From: Sulfitobacter indolifex
GTDB lineage: Bacteria > Pseudomonadota > Alphaproteobacteria > Rhodobacterales > Rhodobacteraceae
Length of the DNA stretch: 64,000 bases
NCBI RefSeq assembly: GCF_022788655.1
Contig: NZ_CP084951.1
Span: 186,001-250,000, forward strand
Direction: 5' to 3'
Below, piece after piece: positions 1-35,051 of this stretch (the stretch's first letter is position 1; every line of letters begins with the position of its first letter). Under the pieces are notes generated by a model. It worked only from the letters and a program-made list of their open reading frames with translations. It searched no databases and was not told the origin of the DNA. The position numbers and the translations under genes are program-made.

Positions 1-3000
1 TCGCCCGAGATCCCTATTCCGACGCTCTATGTCTCCACCACGCTCGAAGGTATCTCACCCGAAGACAGTGAACGGCTGTTGGTCGAGCCGCTTGAGACAG
101 AGCTTAGCGCGATCACCGGGCTAAAGCAGATCACCTCAAACGGGGCCGAAGGCCATGCCTCTGTGCAACTGGAGTTTGAGCCGGGGTTCGACTCTGATGA
201 AGCGCTCGACAAGGTGCGCGAAGGCGTTGACCGGGCTAAGTCTGACCTGCCCGAAGACGCCACCGACCCGGTTGTGACCGAGATCAACACAGCGCTGTTC
301 CCGATCCTGACCGCGATCCTGTCCGGGCCGGTGCCAGAGCGCACGCTTAACCGTATTTCCGAGGAACTGAAGGACGCGATTGAAGGGCTGTCTGGCGTGC
401 TCGAAGTCGACGTTGGCGGAGAGCGCACAGAGCTTTTGGAGGTCTTAATCGACCCCACGGTGTTTGAGACCTACAACATCTCGTTCGAAGAGCTGATCAG
501 TCAGATCAACCGCAACAACCGCCTGATTGCTGCAGGCGCGATTGAAAGCGGCGCGGGGCGGCTGGTGCTCAAGGTGCCGGGGCTGATCGAAGACGTCGAA
601 GACGTCATGTCTCTGCCAATCAAGGTGCGCGGCGATACTGTGGTGACCTTCGCTGATGTCGCCACGATCCGCCGCACCTTCAAAGATCCCACCGGCTTTG
701 CGCGCATTGATGGGCAACCGGCACTGGCGTTGGAGATCAAGAAACGCTCGGGCGCGAACATCATTGAAACGGTTGCCGCCGTGCGCGAGCTGATTGATGA
801 AATGCGGACGGAATGGCCTGACAGCATCACCGTCAAATACACCCAAGACGAATCTGAGCAGGTCCAAAGCATGCTCAGCGATCTGGAAGCGAATGTTATT
901 GCGGCCGTGATCCTTGTGATGATCGTGATCGTCTGGGCCTTGGGCGTCCGCTCGGCTCTGCTGGTGGGGCTGGCGATTCCGGGGGCGTTTCTGGCCGGTG
1001 TCACCGCGCTTTGGGTGATGGGCTATACGATGAACCTCGTGGTGCTTTTCTCGCTGATCCTCGTGGTGGGCATGCTGGTGGACGGCGCCATCGTAACCAC
1101 CGAACTGGCCGATCGCCGCCTGCAGGAGGGGCATTCCCCCCGTGCGGCCTATGCCCATGCGGCGAAGCGTATGTCATGGCCGATCATCGCCTCAACTGCC
1201 ACGACGTTGAGCGTGTTCTTCCCGCTGCTGTTCTGGACCGGCACAGTGGGGGAGTTCATGAAATTCCTGCCGATTACGGTTATTTTGACCCTGACGGCCT
1301 CGCTTTTCATGGCATTGGTTTTTATCCCCGTGGTTGGCGGGATCATCGGCAAACGCCCCCCGCAATCGGCCAAGGATAAGGCCACGCTTTATGCCGCTGA
1401 ACAGGGTGATCCGCGTGATCTGAAGGGCTTTACCGGCGGCTATGTCAAACTGCTGCAATTCGCCATTCTGCGGCCTTGGATGACATTGATACTAGCGATT
1501 TCTATGCTGATGGGGGGCTTTACTGCCTATGCGCAGTTCGGCAACGGCATCACCTTTTTCCCCGAAGTAGAGCCTGATTTCGCGCAGGTACAGGTCCGCG
1601 CGCGGGACAATTTCTCAATCTACGAACAAGACGAACTGGTACGGCAGGTTGAGCAGCGGTTGTTCGAGTATGATGAGATTGCCAGTGTCTATGCGCGCAC
1701 CGGCGGCGGCAACCGTGACAGCGCCGATTTGATTGGCACTGTTCAGGTGGAATTTACCGAATGGGACGAACGCCGGACCGCCGCGATGATCGGCGAGGAT
1801 ATCCGCACCGAGATGGCGGCCATTCCGGGCATCGATGTGCAGGTTCAGACGGCCTCAAACGGACCCACTGGCGGAAAGCCCGTCAATCTGCGGATCAAGG
1901 CACATGACAGTGAAGTGCAGCAGCAGGTTGTTAACCAAATCCGTGAGAAGATGTCGGATATCGGCGGTTTCACCGATGTGACGGATTCGCGCCCCCTGCC
2001 GGGGGTGGAGTGGCGCATCGCAGTTAACCGTTCCGAAGCAGCACGGTTCGGGGCCGATATCTCCACCTTGGGTCAAGCGGTGCAACTGCTGACGCGCGGC
2101 ATCACCGTGGCGGATTACCGCCCCGACGATGCCGAAGGTTCCATCGACATTAACGTCCGCTTTCCGTCTGATGAACGCACGCTGGAAGAGCTTCAATCGC
2201 TGCGCGTGCCGACCTCTGCAGGGCTGGTGCCGATCTCGAACTTCGTGACGTTCGAGCCAAGCCCGCGCACCGGCACGATCACGCGCGTTGATCAAGAACG
2301 CGTGGTGACGGTCGAAGCGAACGTCGCACCCGGCGTCTTGGTGAACGATCAAACGGTTGCTCTGCGCAGCGCGATTGACGCAATGGACCTGCCCCCGGGG
2401 GTCGAAGCCTCCTTTGCGGGCGAAGCGGAAGACCAGCAGGAATCGATGATCTTCCTCGCAGGGGCGTTTATCACCGCGATCTTCCTGATGTTCGTGATCC
2501 TCGTGATCCAGTTCAACACGTTCTACCAAGCCTTTGTCGTCATGTCGGCCATTGTCTTTTCCATTGCAGGCGTACTTTTTGGTCTGCTCGTCACCGGGCG
2601 GCCCTTTGGCGTCGTCATGGGCGGCATCGGGGTGATCGCGCTGGCGGGGATCGTGGTGAACAACAATATCGTTCTGATCGACACTTATAACGATCTTAAG
2701 AAAACCGGGCTTTCACCGCTAGAAGCCGCGTTGCGCACCGGGGCACAACGTCTGCGGCCAGTGGTGCTGACCTCCGTTACGACTGCGCTTGGCCTGATGC
2801 CCATGGTGATCGGGCTCAACATCAACTTCTTCACCCGTGAGATTGTCTATGGCGCGCCGTCGACACAGTGGTGGACCGAGTTGAGTTCGGCCATTGCAGG
2901 TGGCCTGGTGGTCGCGACCGTGCTGACACTGGTGGTGACACCAGCAATGTTGATGTTGGGCGAGAAAAAAGCGACACGCGGCGCGCCCACCCCGCAAGAG

Positions 3001-3021
3001 GCCGAGCCCGCAGCGGTGTGA
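1..3021 (+). CDS. RND efflux pump inner-membrane subunit, HAE-1/AcrB-like (5' end outside window)
   Basis: Proton-driven exporter of the inner membrane that works with a periplasmic adaptor and an outer-membrane channel. The frame is already open at base 1 (it reads SPEIPIPTLYVSTTLEG), so the first in-frame start at 79 is internal. About 1006 residues are present, against some 1020-1050 for the family, so little is missing. Two membrane blocks, each a single helix followed by porter and helix clusters, lie around bases 880-1500 and 2440-2990. The fourth-helix motif reads LVDGAIV (near base 1080), keeping only one of the two aspartates of the AcrB proton relay. The adaptor gene is probably just upstream. 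The substrate cannot be told from the sequence. Confidence 0.93.
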   Translation, partial: SPEIPIPTLYVSTTLEGISPEDSERLLVEPLETELSAITGLKQITSNGAEGHASVQLEFEPGFDSDEALDKVREGVDRAKSDLPEDATDPVVTEINTALFPILTAILSGPVPERTLNRISEELKDAIEGLSGVLEVDVGGERTELLEVLIDPTVFETYNISFEELISQINRNNRLIAAGAIESGAGRLVLKVPGLIEDVEDVMSLPIKVRGDTVVTFADVATIRRTFKDPTGFARIDGQPALALEIKKRSGANIIETVAAVRELIDEMRTEWPDSITVKYTQDESEQVQSMLSDLEANVIAAVILVMIVIVWALGVRSALLVGLAIPGAFLAGVTALWVMGYTMNLVVLFSLILVVGMLVDGAIVTTELADRRLQEGHSPRAAYAHAAKRMSWPIIASTATTLSVFFPLLFWTGTVGEFMKFLPITVILTLTASLFMALVFIPVVGGIIGKRPPQSAKDKATLYAAEQGDPRDLKGFTGGYVKLLQFAILRPWMTLILAISMLMGGFTAYAQFGNGITFFPEVEPDFAQVQVRARDNFSIYEQDELVRQVEQRLFEYDEIASVYARTGGGNRDSADLIGTVQVEFTEWDERRTAAMIGEDIRTEMAAIPGIDVQVQTASNGPTGGKPVNLRIKAHDSEVQQQVVNQIREKMSDIGGFTDVTDSRPLPGVEWRIAVNRSEAARFGADISTLGQAVQLLTRGITVADYRPDDAEGSIDINVRFPSDERTLEELQSLRVPTSAGLVPISNFVTFEPSPRTGTITRVDQERVVTVEANVAPGVLVNDQTVALRSAIDAMDLPPGVEASFAGEAEDQQESMIFLAGAFITAIFLMFVILVIQFNTFYQAFVVMSAIVFSIAGVLFGLLVTGRPFGVVMGGIGVIALAGIVVNNNIVLIDTYNDLKKTGLSPLEAALRTGAQRLRPVVLTSVTTALGLMPMVIGLNINFFTREIVYGAPSTQWWTELSSAIAGGLVVATVLTLVVTPAMLMLGEKKATRGAPTPQEAEPAAV

Positions 3022-3028
3022 GCCGATG

Positions 3029-3493
3029 TTAGGCGGCCTTGTCGGCCTTGTCCTCGGTCAGAATGGTATAAAGCGTGGCCGGGTCTGGGTTCGACCGCAG
3101 CTTGGTGCAGATGCTGGTGTCTCGCAATGTGCGGGCCACCAGCGCCAGCGCTTTGAGGTGCTCAACCCCTGCGTCTTCGGGGGCGAACAGGGCAAAGGCC
3201 ACATCGACAGGTTGACGGTCGACCGACGAAAAATCGATTGGTTTGTCCAGCAGCACGAAAGCACCGACCACGCGGTCGATGCCATTCATGCGCGCGTGGG
3301 GCAGGGCGACGCCGTGGCCCACACCGGTCGGGCCAAGGGTTTCGCGCGTCATCAGCGCATCCACCACTTGGCCAGCCGGCAGCCCATAGGCATGCTGGGC
3401 GAGTTCGCCGATATCCTGCATCAGCCGCTTCTTGCTAGAAGCCGAAGTCAAAACCTTTACGGCCTCTGGCTTGAGGAGTTTGCCGAAATCCAT
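3029..3493 (-). CDS. ptsN: PTS IIA-like nitrogen regulatory protein PtsN
   Basis: Cytoplasmic EIIA-Ntr protein, the end acceptor of the nitrogen phosphotransferase chain (PtsP-NPr-PtsN), which acts by protein contacts rather than sugar transport. It has 154 residues, the normal length. The phosphorylatable histidine is H66 in the motif GVALPHARM. It lies 40 bp downstream of hpf on the same strand, the usual pairing in alphaproteobacteria. Its 3' end converges on the RND gene, with only 7 bp between the stops. The neighbouring rpoN expected in many proteobacteria is not here. Confidence 0.95.
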   Translation of the reverse strand: MDFGKLLKPEAVKVLTSASSKKRLMQDIGELAQHAYGLPAGQVVDALMTRETLGPTGVGHGVALPHARMNGIDRVVGAFVLLDKPIDFSSVDRQPVDVAFALFAPEDAGVEHLKALALVARTLRDTSICTKLRSNPDPATLYTILTEDKADKAA

Positions 3494-3533
3494 ACCGCTC
3501 GCCCTGCTCTGTGGCGGATATTACCGCCGTGGG

Positions 3534-4100
3534 TTACGAAGGGTCGATCCAGCCGATGTTCCCGTCCTCACGACGGTACACGACATTCATCCCTTCCTGG
3601 CCTTCCTTGCGAAACAGCAGCACCGGATCGCCCGACAATTCCATCTGCATGACCGCTTCACCGACAGACAAAGTTGGCACCTTCATCTGCATCTCGGCAA
3701 TGATCATGGGTTGGAGGGTATCAGGTTCCTGCGCGTCTGAATCGCTGTCTGACGCGAGGATATAGGAGGACGCCCCCAAAAGTTCAACCGGTTCGGCACG
3801 ATCTTTGTGATGGTCCTTCAAGCGGCGCTTGTAACGGCGCAGTTGTTTTTCCATCTTCGCGCAGCAACTATCGAAAGCAGCATAGATTTCCGTCGCCTTG
3901 GCCTTGGCCGAAGCGGTGAGACCGGTAGAAAGATGCACCGTTGCCTCACAGGCAAATTCGTGACCCGTTTTGGAAAACACCACCAGGGCATCGGTCGGGC
4001 GTTCGGCATATTTGCCTACCGCCTCGTCCAGTTCCGTCCGGACATGTGTCCGAAGCGCATCGCCAATGTCGATCTGTTTGCCACTGATCTGATACCGCAT
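3534..4100 (-). CDS. hpf: Ribosome hibernation promoting factor, long form
   Basis: Binds the 30S subunit in slow growth and drives 100S ribosome dimer formation. The 188-residue protein has the S30AE domain at residues 1-105 (starts MRYQISGKQIDIGDAL, basic helix KQLRRYKRRLKDHHKD) and a C-terminal domain at about 130-188 (VVKxK-like VPTLSVGEAVMQMELSGDP). The C-terminal extension is what defines long HPF. A good Shine-Dalgarno (AAGGAGACG) sits before the start. Likely co-transcribed with ptsN. A 308-bp gap separates it from lptB, so it probably has its own promoter. Confidence 0.95.
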   Translation of the reverse strand: MRYQISGKQIDIGDALRTHVRTELDEAVGKYAERPTDALVVFSKTGHEFACEATVHLSTGLTASAKAKATEIYAAFDSCCAKMEKQLRRYKRRLKDHHKDRAEPVELLGASSYILASDSDSDAQEPDTLQPMIIAEMQMKVPTLSVGEAVMQMELSGDPVLLFRKEGQEGMNVVYRREDGNIGWIDPS

Positions 4101-4408
4101 ATCGTCTCCTTGTCTTTCTTGTTCCGAACATCGCCAAACGGTCCACGAGCGTGGAGCGGGGCAATTATCAGATATGGAGGAATGGTGCCGCGACCAGAAT
4201 GATTTTGACCGTTCCTTCGCGGGAAGGGCACTGCAGGATCAAACAGGAACGCGATTTCACCATATATCAATGAGGCCGCGTTTCGGTTTGAAAGTCAATG
4301 GCGCCGATGCGCTCGGCGCCGTTTAATGACTACAATCAGAGCGATTTTCAACAAAGGCTAAGCAATGCTATGCCAAAGACTGGCCAAGCCAATAAAACAC
4401 GCTAAGTC
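4101..4408. other. Intergenic region between lptB and hpf
   Basis: No credible gene is seen in these 308 bases; the short ORFs here lack a ribosome site and resemble nothing. It should hold the hpf promoter on its left side. Its only clear structure is the hairpin at 4300-4320. In many proteobacteria rpoN occupies this spot; no trace of a sigma-54 gene is visible. Confidence 0.6.
4300..4320 (-). terminator. Possible lptB terminator hairpin
   Basis: Perfect 8-bp inverted repeat GGCGCCGA/TCGGCGCC with a 5-base loop, about 90 bp past the lptB stop. There is no real T-run after it on the minus strand, so it may be a weak terminator, an RNA-stabilising end or a binding site. Confidence 0.4.
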
Positions 4409-5164
4409 CTAGGAAATACGGAAATTATCGCCAAGATAGACGCGGCGCACATTCTCGTTTTGCACAACTTCCTCGGGCGTTCCGGACATCAGAACTTTGC
4501 CCTCATGCAGGATATAGGCGCGGTCGACGATCTCTAGTGTTTCGCGGACATTGTGGTCAGTGATCAGCACGCCGATGCCACGCTTCTTGAGGTCGGCAAC
4601 CAATTGCCGGATGTCCCCAACGGAAATCGGATCGACCCCGGCAAAGGGTTCGTCAAGCAGCAGATAGCTGGGATTGGCGGCCAGACAACGGGCGATTTCG
4701 ACGCGGCGACGCTCCCCCCCCGACAGCGCCAGCGCAGGGGCGCGGCGCAGGTGTTCGATGGAAAACTCGGTCAGCAGCTCTTCAAGCCGCTCGCGCCGCT
4801 GGTGGCGGTGTTTGACCCGGATATCGAGGATCGCGCTGATGTTGTCTTGTACCGACAGCCCGCGAAAGATGCTCATTTCCTGCGGCAGATAGCCAATGCC
4901 AAGCTGCGCGCGGCGGTACATCGGCAGGGTGGTGACATCCTTGCCATCCACGGTCACACGCCCCCCCTCGGGCGTGACAAGTCCAGCCACGGCGTAGAAG
5001 GTCGTCGTCTTGCCCGAACCGTTTGGCCCTAAGAGGGCAACAACCTCGCCGCGGTCAAGCTCCATTGAGAAGTCGCGGATCACCGCTTTCTTGCGATAAG
5101 ATTTGCGCAAATGCTGAATGCGCAGGCCGGAGTCGCCCCCGGCAACCTTGAGCTCGGGGGGCAT
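4409..5164 (-). CDS. lptB: LPS export ABC transporter ATP-binding protein LptB
   Basis: ATPase that powers extraction of lipopolysaccharide from the inner membrane by LptB2FGC. Walker A is GPNGSGKTT (about residue 45), the signature is [15 protein letters not shown], and Walker B is [13 protein letters not shown] followed by the H-loop ITDHNV. The 251 residues are the usual size. The first ATG overlaps the last base of the lptA stop, so translation is coupled. The permease genes lptF and lptG are not in the window, which is normal. Confidence 0.97.
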
Positions 5165-5658
5165 CAGTTGCCGCTGCCGGGCTGCAAAATGGTCTTCACG
5201 CCGCCTGACATCTGCGCCGTGCCGTCGTTCAGGTTCACCGTCATTTCCTGCGCGCTCAGCGCACTTGGCCCTTGGGTCATCAGGACATCGCCGCTCATCA
5301 CCAAGGTGCCCGCGTCGATATCATAGTCGGCGCGCTGCGATTCAGCGGCGTCTTCGCCAGCGACCAGTACAACGCCGCCGGTCGCCTCAAGCTTGGCAAT
5401 GCCCTGATCTTCCGCGCGGTAGATCACTTGCACCTTGCCCGCAGAAAGCGTCATTTCACCCTGAGAGATCAATACGTTACCAGTAAAAATAGCCGTGCCC
5501 GAAGCGTTATCGACCGACAGATTATCGGCGGTCACTTCGACAGGCAGGCTGGTGTCTTGCTCTAGCGCGCCAAAGGCCACATTGGCCGATTGTGCAGTGA
5601 CAGGGGCGGCCTGCAGCGCGAAAAGCAGCGGCAGCATCAAAATAAACAAGTGTTTCAA
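5164..5658 (-). CDS. lptA: LPS transport periplasmic protein LptA
   Basis: Periplasmic bridge protein that carries lipopolysaccharide between LptC and the outer-membrane LptD/E. It starts with a Sec signal peptide ([20 protein letters not shown], cleaved after about VTAQS), followed by an OstA/jelly-roll domain with [29 protein letters not shown] strands. It is 164 residues, 5 bp downstream of lptC and overlapping lptB by one base. Family assignment rests on the OstA-like strands and on position between lptC and lptB. Confidence 0.93.
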
Positions 5659-5663
5659 GGCAG

Positions 5664-6272
5664 TTACTCTTTCGTTGCTTGCGGCGTGTATATCAGTTTC
5701 ACACCTTTTGTGAAAAGCAATTGCGAGCCGGCGCTGTTCTGCCGATTGGTGATTGCCATGCTTCCGGCGGTGATCTTGCCTGCCGGACTGGTGGCTTCGA
5801 CCGGGCCGGGTGAAAGAAGATCTAGTGTGGTTAGGTTGGTTGTCATCCGCTCAGATAGAATCTGGTAGCCGGTTGAGGTGCTGACGCGCACATCGCCCGC
5901 CAGTTCCGCTTCCTCCGCACCGGTGTCAAACCTGCCGCTGCTGGATTGCAGTATGATTTTCGCACCATCCTGTAGATCTAGGGTGGCCTCGATATCTTCG
6001 GCCTCATTGGTGCCGGTCTCGCCGCCGGGGGTTGTCAACTTTTCGGCGGAGAATGAGATCAGATCGCCGTCCGCCGTGGTGCCGGAGTAGAAGGGGCCGG
6101 TGATCTGCTGGTCGCGCAGCCGATCCTGTACTTCTTTATCCGCAAAAGGGATCACCGCCTGCGGTTCTATCGCGCGCGACAACAGGAACAGGGTCGACAG
6201 CAGTGCCAGCGCAATCAGCGGAAAGAGCACTTTCAGCCAAGAGACAACACGTGAGTGGCGGTCGCCCTTCAT
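5664..6272 (-). CDS. lptC: LPS export system protein LptC
   Basis: Bitopic inner-membrane protein that passes lipopolysaccharide from LptB2FG to LptA. One N-terminal membrane helix (LFPLIALALLSTLFLLS, residues about 16-33) anchors a periplasmic beta-jellyroll domain. The 202 residues match alphaproteobacterial LptC. It lies 6 bp after kdsD and 5 bp before lptA, so the three form one operon. Sequence conservation in this family is low; context carries much of the call. Confidence 0.9.
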   Translation of the reverse strand: MKGDRHSRVVSWLKVLFPLIALALLSTLFLLSRAIEPQAVIPFADKEVQDRLRDQQITGPFYSGTTADGDLISFSAEKLTTPGGETGTNEAEDIEATLDLQDGAKIILQSSSGRFDTGAEEAELAGDVRVSTSTGYQILSERMTTNLTTLDLLSPGPVEATSPAGKITAGSMAITNRQNSAGSQLLFTKGVKLIYTPQATKE

Positions 6273-6278
6273 CCCGCG

Positions 6279-7247
6279 TTACCCCAGCCCGACGCGCAGA
6301 CAGTCGTGGATATGCAGCAGCCCCACGGGCGATTTGCCGTCGTTCTGCGCTGGATCTGTGACGATCAGGCAGGTGATCTTGCGGTTGTTCATCACGCCCA
6401 CGGCTTTTTCGGCCAGTTCGTCGGGGCTGATGGTGACGGGTGCGGGGGTCATGACCTCACGCGCGGTCATGGTCATCAGCCCATCTAAGTGACGCGCGAG
6501 GTCGCCCATGGTGATGATACCTTCAAGCGTGCCCGCGTCATTCACCACGCAGACCACGCCAAAACCCTTGCGGCTGATCTCGCTCAACGCGTCGGCCATT
6601 GGCGCATCGGCAGAGACCAATGGCAGCGCATCGCCCACATGCATTAAGTCTGCCACACGGCTCAGCCGCGCGCCCAGTTTGCCGCCAGGGTGGAAGTCGC
6701 GGAAATGCTCAGCGGTGAAGGCGCGGTTCTCCATCAGGGCCACGGCCACGGCATCGCCCATTGCCAGCGTCAGCGTGGTTGAGGTGGTCGGCACAACGCC
6801 TGTGCCGCAAGCCTCGGCAATGCGGGGCAGTTCCAGCACCACATCGCTGTGGCGGCCCAAGCTGCTGTCAGGGCGGCTGGTGATCCCGATGAGCGGGATC
6901 GCATAGCGGCGCGAGTAGGCGATGAGGTTGGCCAATTCCGGCGCTTCGCCGGAGTTGGAGATCGCCAGCACCACGTCAGCTGCGGTGATCATGCCCAAGT
7001 CGCCGTGGCTTGCCTCGGCCGGATGCACAAATTGGGCAGGGGTCCCGGTGGAGGCCAGCGTCGCTGCGATTTTGTTGCCGATATGGCCCGATTTACCGAT
7101 GCCGGTGACGATGATGCGGCCCTTGCACGCGCGCATCAGGTCCACGGCACCGCGGAAACGGTCATCAAGGCTGTCGGCAAGCTGGATCAGCGCGTCAGAT
7201 TCGCAGCGGATCACGCGACGGGCGGTATCAAGAAAAGGTGTGTTCAT
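6279..7247 (-). CDS. kdsD: Arabinose-5-phosphate isomerase KdsD (KpsF/GutQ family)
   Basis: Interconverts ribulose 5-phosphate and arabinose 5-phosphate, the first step to Kdo for the LPS core. An N-terminal SIS sugar-isomerase domain (residues about 30-165, with VTGIGKSGHIGNKIAATLAS) precedes two CBS domains (about 200-320). I start it at MNTPFLDTARR (7247), because this gives the usual 322 residues and an ATGA overlap with the rnd stop; a start 30 bp upstream is possible. Context with lptCAB supports a role in lipopolysaccharide. Confidence 0.95.
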   Translation of the reverse strand: MNTPFLDTARRVIRCESDALIQLADSLDDRFRGAVDLMRACKGRIIVTGIGKSGHIGNKIAATLASTGTPAQFVHPAEASHGDLGMITAADVVLAISNSGEAPELANLIAYSRRYAIPLIGITSRPDSSLGRHSDVVLELPRIAEACGTGVVPTTSTTLTLAMGDAVAVALMENRAFTAEHFRDFHPGGKLGARLSRVADLMHVGDALPLVSADAPMADALSEISRKGFGVVCVVNDAGTLEGIITMGDLARHLDGLMTMTAREVMTPAPVTISPDELAEKAVGVMNNRKITCLIVTDPAQNDGKSPVGLLHIHDCLRVGLG

Positions 7248-7858
7248 GCGTGTGCGAAGATGTCCGTGTCCGGCCATCCCTCCAGATCAAGCCGGGCGCG
7301 CATCGGCAGGAAATCGAAACAGGCCTGCGCCATGTCCATCCGGCCTTCGCGTATCAGGCGTTTGTTAAGTTCATCGCGCAGACGGTGCAGGTAAAGCACA
7401 TCTGACGCGGCATAGTCGATCTGCGCTTGGGTCAGCTCTTTGGCCCCCCAGTCGCTGGATTGTTGCTGTTTGGAGATATCCACGCTCAGTAGTTCCTGAC
7501 AGAGCTTCGCCAGCCCGTGCCGATCCGTATAGGTACGGATCAAACGGCTGGCGATCTTGGTGCAATAGACTGGTGCTGCGGTGGCGCCAAAGGCGTTCAG
7601 CATCGCGGCAATGTCAAAACGGCCATAATGAAACAGCTTCAGCACATGTGGATTTTCCAACAGCGCGCAGAGGTTCGGCGCTTCGGTCTGGCCTTTGGCA
7701 ATCTGCACGAGATGCGCATGACCATCGCCGCCCGACAGCTGCACAACGCACAGCCGATCACGGTGCGGATGCAGCCCCATCGTTTCGCAGTCAATGGCAA
7801 CCATCGGCCCGAGGTCGAGGTCATCCGGCAGGTCGTTCTGATAGAGGAAATTTGTCAT
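7244..7858 (-). CDS. rnd: Ribonuclease D, short form
   Basis: 3'-5' exoribonuclease of the DEDD family for tRNA 3'-end trimming. The 204 residues contain only the exonuclease domain: Exo I VAIDCETMGLHPHRDRL, Exo II LKLFHYGRFDIAAM, Exo III YAASDVLYLHRLRDEL. The HRDC domains of E. coli RNase D are absent, as is usual for the short alphaproteobacterial type. Start MTNFLYQNDLPDD is preferred; an in-frame start 30 bp earlier lacks support. It overlaps kdsD by 4 bp. Confidence 0.92.
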   Translation of the reverse strand: MTNFLYQNDLPDDLDLGPMVAIDCETMGLHPHRDRLCVVQLSGGDGHAHLVQIAKGQTEAPNLCALLENPHVLKLFHYGRFDIAAMLNAFGATAAPVYCTKIASRLIRTYTDRHGLAKLCQELLSVDISKQQQSSDWGAKELTQAQIDYAASDVLYLHRLRDELNKRLIREGRMDMAQACFDFLPMRARLDLEGWPDTDIFAHA

Positions 7859-7912
7859 GAGGTCGTCTATACCGCGCTTGCACGGCATGGGAAAGCAGCG
7901 CTTTGCCGGCGG

Positions 7913-8704
7913 TCAGCCCGCCGCCGAAGCAGCGGCTAAATCTTGCAAGGCGGGCCGGGGGTGGCGGTTTAGCAATTGGTCGACCAGCAGGTGGCATTGG
8001 TAGCCCGACCAGTCGGAACGGATAAGGCCGCCGGGCAGAGCAGGATGTTTCAACGCAAGCCGCCGCCAGTTGTGCACGATAAGACAGCGCAGGACGGCAA
8101 TCTCGAGCGCGTTCATGTGGCTGTCACAGGCCAGCGTTCCTCGCAGCGTAGACAGCGCGTGTAGCAGTGCGTCATATTCCGGTTCCAACGCAGTCGGCTC
8201 CACGGCGCGGCGCAGCCAGTCGGGCGGGGTTTCCCCTCGGAGGGGCAGGCTCCCTTTGGGGGCAGTGCTCTCACTCCGACCGACATAGACGCGTGGCATG
8301 ACTGGGATGAAGCCTTCTGCGCGCAGGGTGGCGTCAATCTCGCGGCCGTTTTCCTCAGTCATCACCATCTGCCATGGCTCCGACAGATCCGGCGGGGCGG
8401 CATAGATACGGGGGCTGGCTGCCGCACTTTCCGCGCGGCCCTGCGCGGTCAGACTGTGCTGGCTGATCCGCCCCACCTTGCGTGACTGCAACCAACCATC
8501 ATTGCGCAACCGGTGCAGGGCCACGCGGCTCGCCTCAGGCCGCACATCAAGTGCTGCCATTATGGTGGATAAAACCGGCCCGTCTATCGCGTCGCCATTG
8601 CCCTGGGCCAGATCACCGAACAGGCTGATCATCAACGACCAGACGCGCTGACCACCCAAACCCGCAAAGGCGGCAACGAGGGGGGCGGGTTGCTCAGAGA
8701 GCAT
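7913..8704 (-). CDS. paaX: PaaX family transcriptional repressor of phenylacetate catabolism
   Basis: GntR-superfamily repressor that in known systems is released from DNA by phenylacetyl-CoA. The 263 residues have an N-terminal winged helix (SLFGDLAQGNGDAIDGPVL through RLRNDGWLQSRKVGR, about 20-85) and the PaaX-like C-terminal domain, ending in the region NWRRLALKHPALPGGL. It overlaps the end of paaZ by 11 bp and is the last gene of the paa operon, so it probably regulates its own transcript. A candidate operator lies upstream of pcaF. Confidence 0.92.
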   Translation of the reverse strand: MLSEQPAPLVAAFAGLGGQRVWSLMISLFGDLAQGNGDAIDGPVLSTIMAALDVRPEASRVALHRLRNDGWLQSRKVGRISQHSLTAQGRAESAAASPRIYAAPPDLSEPWQMVMTEENGREIDATLRAEGFIPVMPRVYVGRSESTAPKGSLPLRGETPPDWLRRAVEPTALEPEYDALLHALSTLRGTLACDSHMNALEIAVLRCLIVHNWRRLALKHPALPGGLIRSDWSGYQCHLLVDQLLNRHPRPALQDLAAASAAG

Positions 8705-11800: not shown

Positions 11801-12352
11801 TCAGATACATTTGAAATAGTCAAAGGGTTCAAGGCAGTCTTGGCACCGCCATTGCGCCTTGCAGGGGGTCGAGCCGAACTGGCTGATCCGCTCCACCGCT
11901 TGGCTTTTGCAATGCGGGCAATGCTGCGGGCCGCCGGCGGGGCGGGGTGGCGCGATACCGTAGGCTTCCAGCTTGGCGCGGCCGGTATCGGTCATCCAGT
12001 CGGTGGTCCAAGGCGGGGAGAGCTGCCGTTGCAGGGACAGGTTCTCGATGCCGTGGTCGCGCAGGGCCATTTCGATATCAAGGTTGATAATGCTGGTGGC
12101 GGGACAGCCGGAATAGGTCGGCGTGATGGTTACGACCAGCGTCTGATCCTGCCACTGCACATCACGGATGATGCCCAGATCGGTTAGTGAGATGGCCGGG
12201 ATTTCCGGGTCGGGAATGGCGGATAGCCACGCCCAAACAGTCTCTAAACTGGGCTTTTTGCCGCCGCGGACAGGGCCGCGCGGCGACCTGTCGCGGACCA
12301 CCCCGGGCACCGGCGCGGGGGCGGGCCGGGTGCTGGGGGCGGATCTTACCAT
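11801..12352 (-). CDS. paaD: Phenylacetate-CoA oxygenase assembly protein PaaD
   Basis: DUF59/MIP18-type protein thought to help iron-sulfur or metal maturation of the epoxidase. The DUF59 domain spans about residues 35-115 (PEIPAISLTDLGIIRDV, YSGCPATSIINLD), and a C-terminal cysteine-rich ribbon has CPHC and CQDC pairs and ends FDYFKCI. The start MVRSAPSTRP overlaps the paaC end by 7 bp; the first 30 residues are Pro/Arg-rich and may be poorly ordered. It has 183 residues. Confidence 0.93.
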   Translation of the reverse strand: MVRSAPSTRPAPAPVPGVVRDRSPRGPVRGGKKPSLETVWAWLSAIPDPEIPAISLTDLGIIRDVQWQDQTLVVTITPTYSGCPATSIINLDIEMALRDHGIENLSLQRQLSPPWTTDWMTDTGRAKLEAYGIAPPRPAGGPQHCPHCKSQAVERISQFGSTPCKAQWRCQDCLEPFDYFKCI

Positions 12353-13107
12353 GAGGCATCCGGGTAGGCGCGCTGCAACCACTGCATTTGGGTCAGCATA
12401 TGGCCCAGATGTTCGCTGTGCCGCGCGCCACTTTTCCCGCCCCGATGGGCAAAGTCATCTTCGGGCTTGCTGAGTGTCGCGGCCGCCAGCGTGTCGCCGA
12501 CCAACTGGTCATAGCCGGCGCGCAGGCTTTCTGGTTCGGGCGCGATGCCCGCCTCAACCATCGCCGCGTCGACGTCATCACCAAGAAACATCTCGCCGAC
12601 ATAGGGCCAAAGCAGATCAAGCGCCGCTTGCATCCGGCGGTGGCTTTCCTCTGTCCCGTCGCCAAGGCCAATCACCGTGTCAGAGGAGCGCTCGAGGTGG
12701 TAGGTCACTTCCTTGGCGGATTTCTCGGCAATCGCGGCGATCTCCTTGTCGCTGGAATCGACCAGCGCGGTCAGTTGCGCCAGATGCCACGCGTCAAACA
12801 AGAACTGCCGCATCATGGTCTGGCCGAAATCGCCGTTGGGCTGCTCCGCCAGCAGCACATTGCGGAAATCCCAAACGTCGCGGTGAAAGGCGAGCTTGTC
12901 GGCGTCACGCCCCTCACCTTCGACTTCGCCAGCAAGGCCCAGCCAAAGCTGCGTCTGGCCGATCAAATCAAGCGCCACATTGGCGAGCGCGATGTCTTCC
13001 TCCAGCACCGGCGCCACGCCGCACCATTCAGAGACGCGATGGCCCAGCACCAAGGCGTTGTCGCCCATGCGGCAGAGGAATTCGAACTTGGGATTAACCG
13101 TGCTCAC
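12346..13107 (-). CDS. paaC: 1,2-phenylacetyl-CoA epoxidase structural subunit PaaC
   Basis: Ferritin-like helical partner of PaaA in the epoxidase; it has the fold but not the working di-iron site. The 253 residues start MSTVNPKFEFLCRMGDNAL and include LIGQTQLWLGLAGEVEGEG and KEVTYHLERSSDTVIGLGDG, typical of PaaC. It overlaps paaB by 4 bp (ATGA) and paaD by 7 bp, so translation of paaBCD is coupled. Confidence 0.96.
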   Translation of the reverse strand: MSTVNPKFEFLCRMGDNALVLGHRVSEWCGVAPVLEEDIALANVALDLIGQTQLWLGLAGEVEGEGRDADKLAFHRDVWDFRNVLLAEQPNGDFGQTMMRQFLFDAWHLAQLTALVDSSDKEIAAIAEKSAKEVTYHLERSSDTVIGLGDGTEESHRRMQAALDLLWPYVGEMFLGDDVDAAMVEAGIAPEPESLRAGYDQLVGDTLAAATLSKPEDDFAHRGGKSGARHSEHLGHMLTQMQWLQRAYPDASW

Positions 13108-13448
13108 ATCGCCCCCACTTCGTCGGGAATGTCGAAAAAGGTCGGGTGGCGGTAGACCTTGTCGTTGGCGGGCTCATAAAGCGCGCCTTTTTCCTCAGGC
13201 GAGGAAGCCGCGATGGCGCTGGCCTCGACCGCCCAGATGCTCACGCCTTCGTTGCGGCGGGTATAGACATCGCGGGCGTTCTTGATCGCCATCTCCGCGT
13301 CTGCTGCATGCAGGCTGCCAACGTGGCGGTGGCTTAGCCCGTGCTGGCCGCGGATGAAGACCTCCCACAGGGGCCATTCGGTGGACCGTGCCTTGCCGTG
13401 CGGTGCTGCTTCGGTGCCGTCGTATTCACTGGATTCAGGGCTGCTCAT
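13104..13448 (-). CDS. paaB: 1,2-phenylacetyl-CoA epoxidase subunit PaaB
   Basis: Small bridging subunit needed for the working PaaABCE complex. I start it at MSSPESSEYDG (13448), giving 114 residues; an AGAGGAA ribosome site, which lies in the last codons of the upstream small ORF, supports this start. The core is WPLWEVFIRGQHGLSHRHVG with FIRxxxG typical of PaaB. The frame is open for 36 more codons upstream, but those are the antisense-free shadow of the small zinc-ribbon ORF, not part of PaaB. Confidence 0.95.
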   Translation of the reverse strand: MSSPESSEYDGTEAAPHGKARSTEWPLWEVFIRGQHGLSHRHVGSLHAADAEMAIKNARDVYTRRNEGVSIWAVEASAIAASSPEEKGALYEPANDKVYRHPTFFDIPDEVGAM

Positions 13449-13449
13449 T

Positions 13450-13695
13450 TCACATTCCTCTTGGAAGCCAACCAGCTGCATTTCGAGCTGGAATAGGGAT
13501 ATTTTTCTCATTGAGATGTGTAATGACTTTGGGTTCGTGGATCGGAGCCCAACCATCCCAGTTCATCTTAAAACAAGGCATACAGACCTGCATTTTGTAG
13601 GCCGGGATAAACTTTCCATCGTACCGGCCTGGACCCATCTGATGGCGAGAACCACAGACATCACAGCTATACATTATCTTATCACCGCTGCTCAT
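13450..13695 (-). CDS. Small zinc-ribbon-like protein inside the paa operon, function unknown
   Basis: 81-residue ORF between paaA (6 bp gap) and paaB (1 bp gap). It has two CxxC pairs, CDVC at 11-14 and CMPC at 38-41, suggesting a zinc or iron ribbon, then a conserved-looking Trp-rich tail (NWDGWAP, PARNAAGWLPRG). It has no signal peptide or membrane helix. Its base composition is clearly more AT-rich than its neighbours, with codons such as ATA, AGA, AAA and AAT that the paa genes avoid, which suggests it was acquired. Tight spacing and the placing of the paaB ribosome site within its last codons argue that it is translated. It is not one of the known Paa subunits I recognise. A metal-delivery or regulatory role is only a guess. 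Confidence 0.75.
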   Translation of the reverse strand: MSSGDKIMYSCDVCGSRHQMGPGRYDGKFIPAYKMQVCMPCFKMNWDGWAPIHEPKVITHLNEKNIPIPARNAAGWLPRGM

Positions 13696-13700
13696 GTTGC

Positions 13701-14693
13701 TTACTCCGCTGCCATTTTTCTGCTGCGCTTTTTCTCGGCGTGGGCCAGAAGCCCTTCGCGCACCCAACGGCCTTCGTCCCATGCCTTGTTGCGCGCCGCC
13801 AGCCGTTCGGTGTTGCAGGGGCCATTGCCCTTGAGCACCTGAAAGAACTCTTCCCAATCCGGCTCGGTAAAGTCGTAATGGCCGGTGTCCTCGTTGAACT
13901 TGAGGGTCTCGTCGGGGATGGTCAGGCCGAGGTATTCCGCCTGCGGCACCGTCTCATCGACGAACTTTTGGCGCAGCTCATCGTTGGTGTTCATCTTGAT
14001 CTTCCATGCCATCGACTGCGCGGAATGGACCGAGTCCTTGTCCGAGGGGCCAAACATCATCAGCGCCGGGAACCAGAAACGGTTCAGCGCGTCTTGGGCC
14101 ATTTTGCGCTGCGCTTCTGTGCCGTTGGCCATCTTCATCATGATGTCGAAGCCCTGGCGCTGGTGGAAGCTCTCTTCCTTGCAGATACGCACCATGGCGC
14201 GGGCGTAAGGTCCGTAAGAGGTCCGTTGCAGCGGCACTTGGTTCATGATCGCGGCCCCATCGACCAGCCAGCCGACAGCGCCCATATCGGCCCATGTTAG
14301 GGTCGGATAGTTGAAGATCGAGGAGTACTTCATCTTGCCTGACAGCAGGTCGCGGGTCATTTGGTCGCGGGTGACGCCCAGTGTCTCGGCCGCGCAGTAG
14401 AGGTAGAGACCGTGGCCCGCCTCGTCTTGCACCTTGGCCAGCAGGATCGCCTTGCGCTCCAGCGTGGGCGCGCGGGTGATCCAGTTGCCCTCGGGCAGCT
14501 GGCCGACGATTTCGCTATGCGCGTGTTGGCCGATCTGACGGATCAGGTTTTTGCGGTACCCGTCGGGCATCCAGTCTTTGGGTTCGATCTTGCCGCCCGC
14601 GTCGATGCGCTCCTGAAAGGCGCGCTCTTCGGGCTCCATCTCGTCAAGGGACTTGATGCCCTTGCCGGTGGATTTGATCATCTGTGCATACAT
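13701..14693 (-). CDS. paaA: 1,2-phenylacetyl-CoA epoxidase catalytic subunit PaaA
   Basis: Di-iron monooxygenase subunit that forms the ring 1,2-epoxide of phenylacetyl-CoA. The 330 residues carry the ferritin-like iron ligands in [19 protein letters not shown] and [16 protein letters not shown] (ExxH pairs). The N-terminus [20 protein letters not shown] is normal. It lies 28 bp after pcaF and 6 bp before the small zinc-ribbon ORF, in one transcript with paaBCDEZX. Confidence 0.97.
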
Positions 14694-14721
14694 CGTTCTG
14701 TTCCTTTCTCGGAAAGAAGTC

Positions 14722-15927
14722 TCAGCCTGCGTTTTCGAGGATCAGGGCGACGCCCTGTCCCACGCCCACACACATTGTACATAGCGCGTATTTGCCACCC
14801 GTCCGCTTGAGTTGCAGCGCCGCCGTCATCACCAAACGCGCGCCGGACATGCCCAAGGGGTGGCCGATGGCGATGGCGCCGCCGTTGGCATTCACATGGG
14901 GCGCATCGTCTGCCACGCCCAAGGCGCGCAGGGTGGCGAGGCCTTGGCTCGCGAAAGCCTCATTGAGTTCGATCACGTCCATCTGCTCGATGGTCAGCCC
15001 GGCGCGGTCCAACACCTTGCGCACGGCGGGGATCGGGCCGATGCCCATGACGCGGGGCTCGACACCTGCGGCGGACATAGCGACGACGCGGGCGATGGGG
15101 GTGAGGCCGTGGTCTTTTACGCCTGCTTCCGAGGCGAGCAACATCGCCGCCGCGCCATCATTCACGCCGGAGGCGTTGCCAGCAGTTACAGTCAGGTCAG
15201 CGCCATTGATGCCGCGCAGCTTGGCGAGTTTATCGGGCGAGGTGCCGGGGCGGGGGTGTTCGTCGCGGTCGACTATCACATCATCGCCTTTGCGCTGCGG
15301 GATCGTGACGGGGGTAATTTCCTCGGCAAAGATGCCCTTTTCATCCGCCTCGGCCCAGCGTTGCTGGCTGCGGGCGGCGAAAGCGTCTTGATCTTCGCGC
15401 GACACATCATGGTCGGCGGCGACGTTGTCAGCGGTTTCGGGCATGGAATCCACGCCGAACTGCGCCTTCATCTTAGGGTTCACAAAGCGCCAGCCGATGG
15501 TGGTGTCATAGACCGCATTGCTGCGCGAAAAGGCGGTTTCGGCCTTGGGCATCACGAAGGGCGCGCGGGACATGCTCTCAATCCCGCCAGCAATGGCGAG
15601 ATCCATGTCACCAGCGCGGATCGCACGGGCGGCGGCACCCACGGCATCCATGCCGCTGGCGCAGAGCCGGTTGATCGTGGCGCCCGGTACATCGACAGGC
15701 AGACCGGCCAGAAGTGCGGCCATGCGCGCGACGTTGCGGTTGTCTTCGCCCGCTTGGTTGGCACAACCCATGATGACATCATCGACACGCGCCCAATCCA
15801 CCGACGGGTTCCGCTCCATCAGCGCTTTCAGCGGGATTGCGGCCAGATCATCGGCGCGAACCGAAGAGAGGGCACCGCCGTAACGGCCAATGGGGGTGCG
15901 CTGCGCGTCGCAGATGAATGCCTGCAT
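14722..15927 (-). CDS. pcaF: 3-oxoadipyl-CoA/3-oxo-5,6-dehydrosuberyl-CoA thiolase
   Basis: Cleaves 3-oxoadipyl-CoA to succinyl-CoA and acetyl-CoA, the last step of the phenylacetate and beta-ketoadipate routes (paaJ in the former). Starting at [18 protein letters not shown] gives 401 residues. The catalytic residues are Cys in [12 protein letters not shown] (about 90), His in [17 protein letters not shown] and Cys in [11 protein letters not shown]. It is the first gene of the paa operon. A long upstream extension of the frame has no ribosome site and runs through the probable promoter. Confidence 0.95.
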
Positions 15928-15979
15928 GGGGGTACTCCTGTTGTTGCCCTGCAATCTACACATCGCGGCGATTCGTTTC

Positions 15980-16025
15980 AATCTAAATGTTACGGAATGT
16001 GTCTGTGGATTAGATTTCGGTAACA
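15980..16025 (-). promoter_or_regulatory. Inverted repeat upstream of pcaF, candidate paa operator
   Basis: Two arms, AATCTAA-a-TGTTACGGAA (15980-15997) and TTAGATTTCGGTAACA (16010-16025), each contain a complementary AATCTAA/TTAGATT pair and a near-complementary TGTTACGGAA/TTCGGTAACA pair (one mismatch). They lie 53-98 bp before the pcaF start, where a repressor such as PaaX would be expected to bind. The link to PaaX is inference from position. Confidence 0.45.
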
Positions 16026-25140: not shown

Positions 25141-26484
25141 ATGTCTGGAATTCCTCACGACCATTACGAGCCGAATTCGAACGGCGAAAAGTGGCTGCAC
25201 CGCCGCCTTCCCATCGTTGGCCTTTTGTACGACACATTGATGATCCCCACGCCCAAGAACCTGAACTGGATGTGGATCTGGGGCATCGTGCTGACTTTCT
25301 GTCTGGCACTGCAAATTATCACCGGCATCGTTTTGGTGATGCACTACACGCCGCATGTCGACATGGCCTTTTCGTCGGTTGAGCATATTATGCGCAACGT
25401 GAACGGCGGCTATATGATCCGCTATCTGCATATGAACGGCGCGTCGTTGTTCTTCATCGCGGTCTATGCCCACATTTTCCGCGGTCTTTACTACGGGTCG
25501 TATAAAGCCCCGCGTGAGATCACATGGATCATCGGCATGTTGATCTACCTGCTGATGATGGCCACAGGTTTCATGGGCTACGTTCTGCCTTGGGGTCAGA
25601 TGTCCTTCTGGGGCGCGACCGTGATCACCGGCCTCTTTGGCGCGATCCCGTTCATCGGCGAAGGTCTGCAGACCTTCCTGCTGGGTGGACCTGCCGTTGA
25701 TAACGCGACGCTGAACCGCTTCTTCTCGTTGCACTATCTGCTGCCGTTTGTGATTGCGGGTCTTGTGGTTCTCCACATCTGGGCCTTCCACACGACTGGC
25801 AACAACAACCCCACCGGGGTCGAAGTGCGCCGCACCTCCAAAGAAGACGCCAAGAAAGACACGCTGCCGTTCTGGCCCTACTTCGTGATCAAGGACTTGT
25901 TCGCGCTGGCGGTGATCCTGACGCTGTTCTTCGCGGTTGTTGGCTTCATGCCGAACTACCTTGGCCACCCGGACAACTACATCGAAGCGAACGCTCTGGC
26001 GACGCCTGCGCACATCGTGCCGGAATGGTACTTCCTGCCCTTCTACGCGATCCTGCGGGCCTTCACTTCTGAAGTTTGGGTTGTCCAAATCGCGTCCTTC
26101 GTGACCGGTGGCATCATCGACGCCAAGTTCTTCGGCGTGTTGGCGATGTTTGGTGCGATTGCGGTTATGGCGCTGGTGCCTTGGCTGGACACATCCTCTG
26201 TACGTTCGGGCCGTTACCGTCCGATGTTCAAATGGTGGTTCGCCCTGCTGGTGATCGACTTCTTCGCCCTGATGTGGCTGGGCGCGATGCCAGCGGAAGA
26301 GCCCTACGCGAGCTTCTCACTGATCGCTTCGGCCTACTGGTTCGCCTACTTCCTCGTGATCCTGCCTCTCTTGGGTGTGATCGAGAAGCCGCTGGCGCAG
26401 CCGGAGACCATCGAAGCCGACTTTGACGCGCATTACGCGCCCAAGGCTGGCGGCACCAAGACGCTTGTGAACCCGGCGAAATAA
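25141..26484 (+). CDS. petB: Cytochrome b of the bc1 complex
   Basis: Eight-helix inner-membrane subunit with two b hemes and the Qo and Qi quinone sites. The 447 residues start [20 protein letters not shown]. The conserved PEWY of the Qo site is visible in [17 protein letters not shown], with [20 protein letters not shown] before it; paired heme histidines lie in [20 protein letters not shown] and [25 protein letters not shown] helices. It lies 15 bp after petA and 5 bp before petC. Confidence 0.98.
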
Positions 26485-27856: not shown

Positions 27857-28136
27857 CGCGTTGGTGGGCTTGATGGCTGCGGGTTGGTGCCCGGCTCAAA
27901 GTGCGTCCAGCGGGTGCAAGTGGTACAAGCTGTGCGGCTATATCTCTCAATGCCCCCAGCTACGGTCACGATTTGCCTACAACAGATGCCCGGCCCAGTG
28001 GCACACATGCAGCGGGCGATTTCAAAGCGACTTACGATACGGGATCGTTGCAGCTAAGGCAGGCCGTGTGGGTACCGCAAAAGCGCCATCGCCCCCAAGG
28101 GAGGGCGATACCCTTAGCGCTGCACTTCAACCGCTG
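27857..28136. other. Convergent intergenic region between petC and mtaB, no gene seen
   Basis: Together with the terminator this makes a 336-bp gap between converging genes. Several overlapping frames run through it but none has a ribosome site, a start in a sensible place or recognisable protein features. It ends directly at the mtaB stop. I see nothing else in it. Confidence 0.55.
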
Positions 28137-29390
28137 CTAGGCGGTCAACTGTGTGCCTGAAATCCCGGTGATTCTGGTCTGCACGATATCGCCTTCGACC
28201 TGCGGCACGGCAAAGGTCACTTCGGTGAACTGCGCCGTACGGCCCATATGGGGGTTCTCCATCAGCACAGCGTGCATCTGCCCAGCCTGCGCCTCCAGAT
28301 GACGCTGCACCTGCCGCTCCCCAGCCGCGCGCAGCCGGGCTGCCCGTTCCTTGATTGCCGCACCGTTCACCGCAGGCATTCGCGCGGCAGGCGTGCCGGG
28401 GCGTGCTGAATAGGGAAAGACATGCAGCCACGTCAGGTCGCATTCCTCGACGAGCTTCATCGAGTTTTCAAACATCGCCTCGGTTTCAGTCGGGAAACCG
28501 GCGATAATGTCCGCGCCAAAGGTCATGTCAGGCCGCAGAGCGCGGGCCTCTTGGGCGAAGCGGATCGCATCATCGCGCAGGTGGCGGCGCTTCATGCGCT
28601 TCAGAATCATATCGTCGCCATGCTGCAACGACAGGTGCAGATGCGGCATCAGGCGCGGTTCGGTGGCGATGGCCTGCATCAGGTTCTCGTCCACCTCAAT
28701 CGAGTCGATCGAGGAAATCCGCAAGCGCGGCAGATCGGGCACCAACCGCAGGATGCGCATGACCAGATCGCCCAGTTTCGGTGTGGCAGGCAGGTCCGCG
28801 CCCCAAGAGGTCAGGTCGACCCCGGTGAGCACCACTTCGTTAAAGCCCTTATCGACCAACCGCTTGATCTGATCCACCACAACGCCCGCAGGGACCGAGC
28901 GCGAATTGCCACGGCCATAGGGGATGATGCAGAAGGTGCAGCGATGGTCGCAGCCATTCTGGACCTGTACATAGGCGCGGCTGCGGGTGCCAAACCCGTC
29001 GATCAGATGGCCCGCGGTTTCCGTCACCGACATGATGTCGTCGACTTGCACCGTCTCAGTCTCACCAATGAAATCAGCGGCCATGCCCTGCCACGTCGCG
29101 CCCTGCATCTTCTCGGTGTTGCCGATCACGACATCAACCTCGGGCATGGCGTTGAAGGTTTCTGGCTCGGTCTGTGCCGCGCAGCCGGTGACAATCAACC
29201 GCGCCTCTGGGTGCGCCTTGCGCAGCTTGCGGATGTCTTGGCGGGCTTTGCGGACGGCTTCGGCGGTGACGGCGCAGGTGTTGACGACAACGGCGTTCTG
29301 CAACCCGGCTTGCTCGGCCAGTTCCTTCATCGCCTCGGTCTCATAGGCATTCAGACGGCAGCCCATGGTGCTGAAAACGGGGGCGCTCAT
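28137..29390 (-). CDS. mtaB: tRNA t6A37 methylthiotransferase MtaB
   Basis: Radical SAM enzyme that turns t6A37 of ANN-decoding tRNAs into ms2t6A. Starting at MSAPVFSTMGCRLNAYETEAM gives 417 residues. An N-terminal MTTase domain carries three cluster cysteines (GCRLN, VNTCAVT, VTGCAAQ). The radical SAM motif is CDHRCTFC in NGCDHRCTFCIIPYGRG, and a C-terminal TRAM-like region follows. The start overlaps the dapF stop by 4 bp. A longer frame would run through dapF and is rejected. Confidence 0.95.
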   Translation of the reverse strand: MSAPVFSTMGCRLNAYETEAMKELAEQAGLQNAVVVNTCAVTAEAVRKARQDIRKLRKAHPEARLIVTGCAAQTEPETFNAMPEVDVVIGNTEKMQGATWQGMAADFIGETETVQVDDIMSVTETAGHLIDGFGTRSRAYVQVQNGCDHRCTFCIIPYGRGNSRSVPAGVVVDQIKRLVDKGFNEVVLTGVDLTSWGADLPATPKLGDLVMRILRLVPDLPRLRISSIDSIEVDENLMQAIATEPRLMPHLHLSLQHGDDMILKRMKRRHLRDDAIRFAQEARALRPDMTFGADIIAGFPTETEAMFENSMKLVEECDLTWLHVFPYSARPGTPAARMPAVNGAAIKERAARLRAAGERQVQRHLEAQAGQMHAVLMENPHMGRTAQFTEVTFAVPQVEGDIVQTRITGISGTQLTA

Positions 29391-33706: not shown

Positions 33707-34798
33707 TTAATTGGCAAAGGCGATGCAATCTTTCGTCAGGGACAACAGCTGCGCCGTCGCGCCGTCTTCGAATTCTGGCGCGGACAGATCGTTGAGCACT
33801 TTGACGATAATGTCGGTGCCGTCGGGCAGGCGGAAATAATAGCGGATGAAATCGCCCACATAGATGCGCGTGATGAAGGTCGCCGTCAGAGCGTTGTCAT
33901 GGGCGTGGGTTGTGGGGTGAATGAACAGCTTCTCGGGGCGGATTGAGACGCGGCAGGCGGCACCTTCGGTCAGCCCTGCGGAGGTTTGCGTGGTGATGGT
34001 GCCAGTGTCCGTCTCGACCTTGGCAAGGTCGCCTTCGATCTTGCTGACCTTGCCCTGCACGAAGTTGTTTTCCCCGATGAACTCAGCGACGAAGGCATTT
34101 ACCGGGCGCTCGTAAAGCTCCGCCGGGGGCGCACATTGCTGCACCACGCCATCATTGAAAACGGCGATCCGGTCCGACATCGACAGCGCTTCGGTCTGAT
34201 CATGCGTCACATAGATGACAGTAAAGCCGATCTGTTTGTGCAGGCGGGTGATCTCAAACTGCATCTGTTCGCGCAGGTTTTTGTCAAGTGCGCCCAAAGG
34301 TTCGTCCATCAGGATCAGCGTCGGCTGAAAGATCATCGCACGCGCCAGCGCCACACGCTGCCGCTGGCCACCCGAAAGCTGACCGGGACGGCGGTCGCCG
34401 AAGGCCGACAATTCCACTAATGCCAGATATTCCGCCACGCGCTCTTTAATATCGGCCTTAGACATTTTGCGCACGCTAAGCGGATAGGCGAGGTTTTCAG
34501 CCACCGTCATATGCGGAAACAGGGCGTAGTTCTGAAACACCATGCCGATGTTGCGCTTGTTCGGCGCGGTCTTGTTGATCGAGCGGCCGTTGATCGCGAT
34601 ATCGCCCGAGGTGACGCTCTCAAACCCTGCCAGCATCATCAAAACGGTAGTCTTGCCCGACCCGGAGGGGCCAAGAAGGGTGATAAATTCCCCCTCCTGC
34701 ACGTCCATGTCGAACCCTTTGACGACGAGGTTTTCCTGATCGTAGCTCTTCTTGACGTTATCAAAACGCAGAAAAGTCTCTGCTTTGGTGTCTTTCAT
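33707..34798 (-). CDS. Polyamine-type ABC transporter ATP-binding protein, PotA-like
   Basis: ATPase of the importer. Walker A GPSGSGKTTVL (about residue 43), signature LSGGQRQRVALARAM, Walker B LILMDEPLGALDKN, H-loop VTHDQTEAL, then a TOBE domain (about 280-355; CRVSIRPEKLFIH). It has 363 residues and is the first gene of the operon. Upstream, GATTCT (34846) and AGAATC (34876) form a spaced inverted repeat that could be a regulator site. Confidence 0.93.
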   Translation of the reverse strand: MKDTKAETFLRFDNVKKSYDQENLVVKGFDMDVQEGEFITLLGPSGSGKTTVLMMLAGFESVTSGDIAINGRSINKTAPNKRNIGMVFQNYALFPHMTVAENLAYPLSVRKMSKADIKERVAEYLALVELSAFGDRRPGQLSGGQRQRVALARAMIFQPTLILMDEPLGALDKNLREQMQFEITRLHKQIGFTVIYVTHDQTEALSMSDRIAVFNDGVVQQCAPPAELYERPVNAFVAEFIGENNFVQGKVSKIEGDLAKVETDTGTITTQTSAGLTEGAACRVSIRPEKLFIHPTTHAHDNALTATFITRIYVGDFIRYYFRLPDGTDIIVKVLNDLSAPEFEDGATAQLLSLTKDCIAFAN

Positions 34799-35051
34799 TG
34801 TGCCGCGGCTCTCCCTGTCGCTGGGGGGAGTTAAGCAGAGGCGATGATTCTAAACAATATGTTGTATCGCTTAAGAGAATCGCCACCGCATCCTTGGCGC
34901 TTATCGGGCGGGCATGTGACTGCTTTTGTGGCAGGGGGAATGGTAATTGCGCCGTCCAAACGGGAAATCTTTGAAAGAGTACCTATGTCGGTAGCTGAAT
35001 GCATAGGGGCGCACCCCTCAGATTAGAGTTGACCAGAAGGAGACAGCATCG

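Follow-up and report, generated by a model that had tools for sequence, protein, structure and literature searches.

Free-standing homing endonuclease genes are bare ORFs that occupy the gaps between conserved genes, and they are patchy in distribution, present in single copy, and prone to decay. Alien and ORFan genes in operons were reportedly treated by Price, Arkin, and Alm in 2006. Such pathway-foreign genes are described as occurring inside operons in the accessible text of PMC8305728, and integron gene cassettes appear as promoterless single genes in the accessible text of PMC1382264. For phenylacetate degradation, a 2026 survey of the pathway (PMC13186573) stresses, in its accessible sections, that paaA, paaB, and paaC are conserved in position, and those sections make no mention of a gene between paaA and paaB; our literature search likewise found no title or abstract start on such a gene.

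The locus described here lies in the window, by which we mean the whole 64,000-nucleotide stretch of Sulfitobacter indolifex DNA that was analyzed, and it consists of a small ORF placed between paaA and paaB. The family to which this ORF belongs resembles free-standing homing endonuclease genes in being bare, patchy, single-copy, and subject to decay, but differs from them in that neither a recognized nuclease motif nor a general duplication or site rule was found. As in the alien and ORFan genes of PMC8305728, a foreign gene is found in a compact operon and is absent from close relatives; unlike in the accessible account of those genes, (i) comparison with a near relative resolves the insertion to the base, (ii) a ribosome site appears to have been taken over, and (iii) the gene has a traceable family. 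With the integron cassettes of PMC1382264, so far as these are described in its accessible text, it shares the form of a promoterless single gene, and one relative (L013) is situated in an attC-like array; in contrast to cassettes, the window copy is not part of an array, and neither an attC nor a flanking mobile element was seen beside it, its flanks being those of the empty junction in a genome of the same genus (G003). The reading that we consider likely is that a roaming, promoterless gene was recently inserted here, and that its product is probably a zinc-binding passenger that uses the paa operon, rather than a subunit of the epoxidase.

The inserted ORF and its junction with the paa genes

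An 81-codon ORF with two cysteine pairs, wedged between paaA and paaB, had been proposed in the initial annotation, and we found its frame to be intact, with CxxC pairs at residues 11-14 and 38-41 of the 81-residue product and with neighbors verified by TIGR02156 and TIGR02157 (Table 1). The claimed 1-bp gap to paaB (13449) was also seen, but the gap to paaA measures 5 bp (13696-13700) and not the 6 bp claimed. The base composition is, as had been noted, unlike that of the GC-rich paa genes, with a GC content of 46.7% and a GC3 of 45.1%, as compared with GC3 values of 82%, 77%, and 76% for paaA, paaB, and paaC, respectively. The window holds 58 mechanical ORFs that are 300 nt or longer (median GC3, 0.70), of which a single one (0.42) has a lower GC3 than the small ORF; apart from the small ORF, low-GC3 mechanical ORFs (GC3 0.42 to 0.51) were observed at 26076-26426, 34511-34834, and 28114-28443. 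The region from 12000 to 16000 of the window gave no Rfam match at gathering score. The small ORF is a real gene: its frame is not a chance one, because 90-99% of the length of the window protein is covered by those listed relatives that come from unrelated sources, and because a close pair of relatives shows a dN of 0.084 against a dS of 0.534 (a second pair has a dN of 0.083).

No match to the gene was obtained in the 35 further genomes of its genus, of which a few are incomplete, whereas paaA is present in at least 21 of them; the sequence following paaA was compared in 21 of the 35. The nearest of these genomes by paaA, G003 (98% identical), aligns to the window with a single 247-bp gap, the flanking bins being identical at 43-50 of 50 positions over up to 300 bp on each side. 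The junction in G003 reads TAA-GCGAC-ATGAGCAGCCCTGAA, and that in the window reads TAA-GCAAC-ATGAGCAGC-(rest of ORF)-A-ATGAGCAGCCCTGAA. The repeated element ATGAGCAGC, which comprises the first nine bases of paaB, flanks the insert, and its presence at both ends gives the 247-bp insertion several equivalent placements. This clean insertion and the 35 same-genus absences uphold the earlier claim of a recent gain, and the sequence comparison strongly supports acquisition of the gene after the split from the G003 lineage; an exact loss in G003 instead is unlikely, given those absences. The initial annotation had also held that a frame not conserved in close relatives would speak against the gene. 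The absence was indeed found, but it reflects the recent gain rather than a false frame. Further, most relatives start with M-x(3)-K-x-M, and the window protein has one extra residue before the K, which suggests that the first codons of the window gene may have been taken from paaB.

In G003, a GGAG-type site at the end of paaA precedes paaB, whereas in the window it precedes the inserted gene. A ribosome site for paaB had been placed in the final codons of the small gene, and the SD-like AGAGGA is present there. We propose that a single promoterless gene from a horizontally roaming family of ~80-residue proteins entered between paaA and paaB, where it would be co-transcribed with the paa genes and translated from the former paaB ribosome site, with paaB now presumably being started from AGAGGA. 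As judged from the sequence, one message can suffice for the translation of both the inserted gene and paaB, the stop of the one and the start of the other being 1 bp apart. An effect of the inserted gene on paaB expression, as had been suggested, is plausible, since the putative paaB ribosome site now lies within it. A built-in exit ribosome site was considered as a feature of the family and rejected: the terminal arginine is an AGR codon in 12 of 31 cases, as compared with 43 of 125 other arginines (p 0.68), and the AGAGGA that would serve paaB thus does not appear to be an evolved trait of the family.

Table 1. Positions in the window of the inserted gene, its paa neighbors, and the elements at their junctions
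Feature	Position	Strand	Basis or remark
81-codon ORF, undescribed CxxC/CxxC family	13450..13695	minus	Intact frame; ATG start, TGA stop
paaA	13701..14693	minus	TIGR02156 528.8 bits, PF05138
paaB	13104..13448	minus	TIGR02157 139.6 bits, PF06243
paaC	12346..13107	minus	TIGR02158 277.7 bits, PF05138
Insertion relative to G003, 247 bp	13449..13695	minus	One among several equivalent placements
ATGAGCAGC copy 1, start of inserted gene	13687..13695	minus	Sequence
ATGAGCAGC copy 2, paaB start	13440..13448	minus	Sequence
SD-like AGAGGA, 7 nt before paaB ATG, in last codons of inserted gene	13456..13461	minus	Sequence; putative function
GGAG-type site, overlaps paaA end, 8 nt before inserted ATG	13704..13707	minus	Position within a base or two; putative function

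The protein family and the places of its relatives

The window protein has 448 relatives at E ≤ 1e-3, which make up a conserved family of ~80 residues. Four candidate metal ligands, namely C11, C14, C38, and C41, are invariant in 31 of 31 alignment rows, and the window protein retains all 15 of the invariant columns of this alignment. Neither Pfam, NCBIfam, nor PADLOC holds a model for the family; no model of a Paa family, such as those of the epoxidase components PaaABCE and PaaD, turned up when P0002 was matched to Pfam and NCBIfam, and no nuclease family was among the Pfam matches listed. The PHROG matches were weak and included HNH at E 0.071 and 0.16, with one member each. By sequence, the best PDB match had an E of 0.021 with A1 (a cytochrome, with no stretch passing alone) and of 0.24 with A2, and fold searches of BFVD and the PDB gave no match at E ≤ 0.001. 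The weak matches in the fold list are to small zinc domains of the eL24-like, PHD, RING, and ZZ types, and by these weak matches the family resembles such domains in being short and strand-rich, with two helices and two CxxC pairs. From its sequence, the family is probably zinc-binding, and we envisage the protein as an autonomous small zinc domain that would most likely bind a nucleic acid or a protein partner. A search from two distant loci (A3) returned six proteins, none with a telling name. An intact homolog family with a known unrelated role had been named in the initial annotation as a finding that would count against its reading; the family exists, but no such role was found for it.

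The loci of the relatives, 32 from the genome collection and 12 from viral contigs, are scattered, with record titles naming Pseudomonadota, Nitrospirae, Lentisphaerae, and Deltaproteobacteria. The gene is rare: the family draw of 394 genomes gave 2 with it, the class draw of 385 gave 9, and a draw of 347 around a Sphingomonas gave 8, one of which is a remnant at E 9.7e-4. Neither the plasmid nor the phage collection contained a tblastn match to P0002, and no match to P0044 was found among the plasmids. Nine of the 32 copies (L007, L016, L019, and L029 to L034) are interrupted, frame-broken, or partial, which may include assembly errors.

At 12 of the 32 genome loci, a same-strand ORF ends no more than 29 nt ahead of the start of the relative or runs into it; among these, L024 was read by eye, the upstream ORF is doubtful in L003, and the copies in L019 and L031 are broken. 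The genes upstream include uvrA (by eye, in L008, L017, and L143, with a remnant after uvrA in L146), lysC (by eye, in L010 and L144), the ribonucleotide reductase small chain (by Pfam, in L025), and, in three unrelated records (L018, L023, and L046), a DUF2971 gene (by Pfam); a tRNA-like end, read by eye, precedes the relative in L006 and L030. A DUF1156 gene lies upstream in L014, with a DUF499/HEPN gene behind (both by Pfam), and L022 is arranged likewise by likeness. In L014 (3201-9575), where the relative is located between DUF1156 and DUF499/HEPN_Swt1 genes, the neighbors distantly resemble anti-phage-associated NCBIfam models, far below the cut-offs.

Mobility and target sites

Exact repeats are found at the ends of two inserts, namely the 9-bp ATGAGCAGC in the window and the 7-bp CGGAGTA in L024. 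A general target-site duplication was nevertheless rejected, as the longest flanking repeat has a mean of 5.57 nt over 37 loci versus 5.50 nt over 480 mismatched pairs. For the copies at lysC and rplS, comparison of their flanks in relatives yielded no exact insert ends. The relative in L013 has attC-like repeats on both sides (5912-5968 and 6233-6287); the stretch from 600 to 8500 of this Oleiagrimonas locus is a cassette array, in which one family of attC-like repeats has 11 copies. Behind uvrA, the sequence differs among most of the relatives shown, and a sphingomonad genome carries partial extra uvrA 3' ends near its full uvrA (G872:C1, 2882190-2882655 and 2873069-2873419); together, these observations make an integration hotspot after uvrA likely.

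Like free-standing homing endonuclease genes, the bare ORF might instead insert repeatedly just behind a particular set of conserved genes, at their 3' ends, through a nuclease-like activity of its own or through homology, which would fit its recurrence behind uvrA, lysC, and paaA (the window and L024), its single place per genome in 31 of 32 cases, its frequent decay, and the repeats at the two inserts. However, the flanking repeats are no longer than those of the controls, no nuclease family was matched beyond the weak HNH hits in PHROG, the differing sequence after uvrA suggests a general hotspot, and L008 and L143, both behind uvrA, form a supported pair in the tree, so that these two insertions may be one event. 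We therefore regard such a site preference as improbable, and think it just as improbable that the family moves as a bare ORF that prefers sites by its own mechanism and swaps the ribosome site of the next gene. Borrowed mobility, by way of integrons, prophages, or capture at a break, is favored over self-mobility.

Recurrence between paaA and paaB

Apart from the window copy, the family draw of 394 genomes yielded a single relative, L024 in the Rhodobacteraceae genome G265, and it too is situated between paaA and paaB. A second family-draw match at this place would seldom arise by chance alone, and the match leaves room for a paa-linked role, or a preferred site, of the window family. A single origin at this junction, with spread between genera through recombination of the flanking paa genes, would account for the shared place, and an AU test does not reject window and L024 as a clade, either with 147 rows (p 0.561; constrained tree 7.65 log units better than the free one) or with 35 rows (p 0.364), in trees that left out proteins longer than 90 residues and loci with broken copies. 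We hold it to be very unlikely, however: (i) the window flanks track G003 right to the insert, and the paaA end is only 75% identical to that of L024, so that an L024-like donor is unlikely to have supplied the gene together with long flanks; (ii) the two proteins share 42% identity and, by score, are 140th and 89th of 146 among each other's relatives; and (iii) the insert ends differ between the two.

The paaA-paaB distance was measured at 35 of 39 loci, which correspond to 33 distinct genomes with G046 and G049 counted once each, and three of these genomes hold an extra gene at the junction, namely that of the window, G265, and G015. In G015 (L064), which is of the same genus, the gap contains a different ORF of ~150 codons that is DUF3291-like by eye.

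A lineage-specific accessory of the phenylacetyl-CoA epoxidase, acting in assembly, iron loading, or paaB control and kept between paaA and paaB by its function, would explain why L024 occupies the same place. It would also fit the position of the L025 relative behind the ribonucleotide reductase small chain, which, like the epoxidase, is a di-iron protein. We nonetheless doubt this explanation, as none of the same-genus genomes, including those that have paaA, carries the gene, most of the identified neighbors elsewhere are unrelated to paa, and the junction also takes an unrelated ORF; a functional reading is weakened further by the recurrence behind uvrA and lysC and by the low identity of the two proteins at this junction, each of which has many closer relatives. 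The initial annotation had proposed that the gene may affect the assembly or metal loading of the epoxidase, which the mostly paa-unrelated neighbors leave unsupported, and had asked whether homologs sit between paaA and paaB in other Rhodobacteraceae: L024 does, but the Rhodobacteraceae-type relatives L014, L015, and L034 are located away from paaA and paaB. Under the passenger reading that we prefer, the operon would only provide expression, and the protein would not be an epoxidase subunit.

The window offers a recent case, exact to the base, in which a foreign gene has entered a working operon and both neighbors have been left translatable. It also draws attention to a widespread protein family that is absent from the family libraries searched, and the recurrence of this family behind uvrA, lysC, and paaA makes chance, hotspot, and target choice testable against one another.
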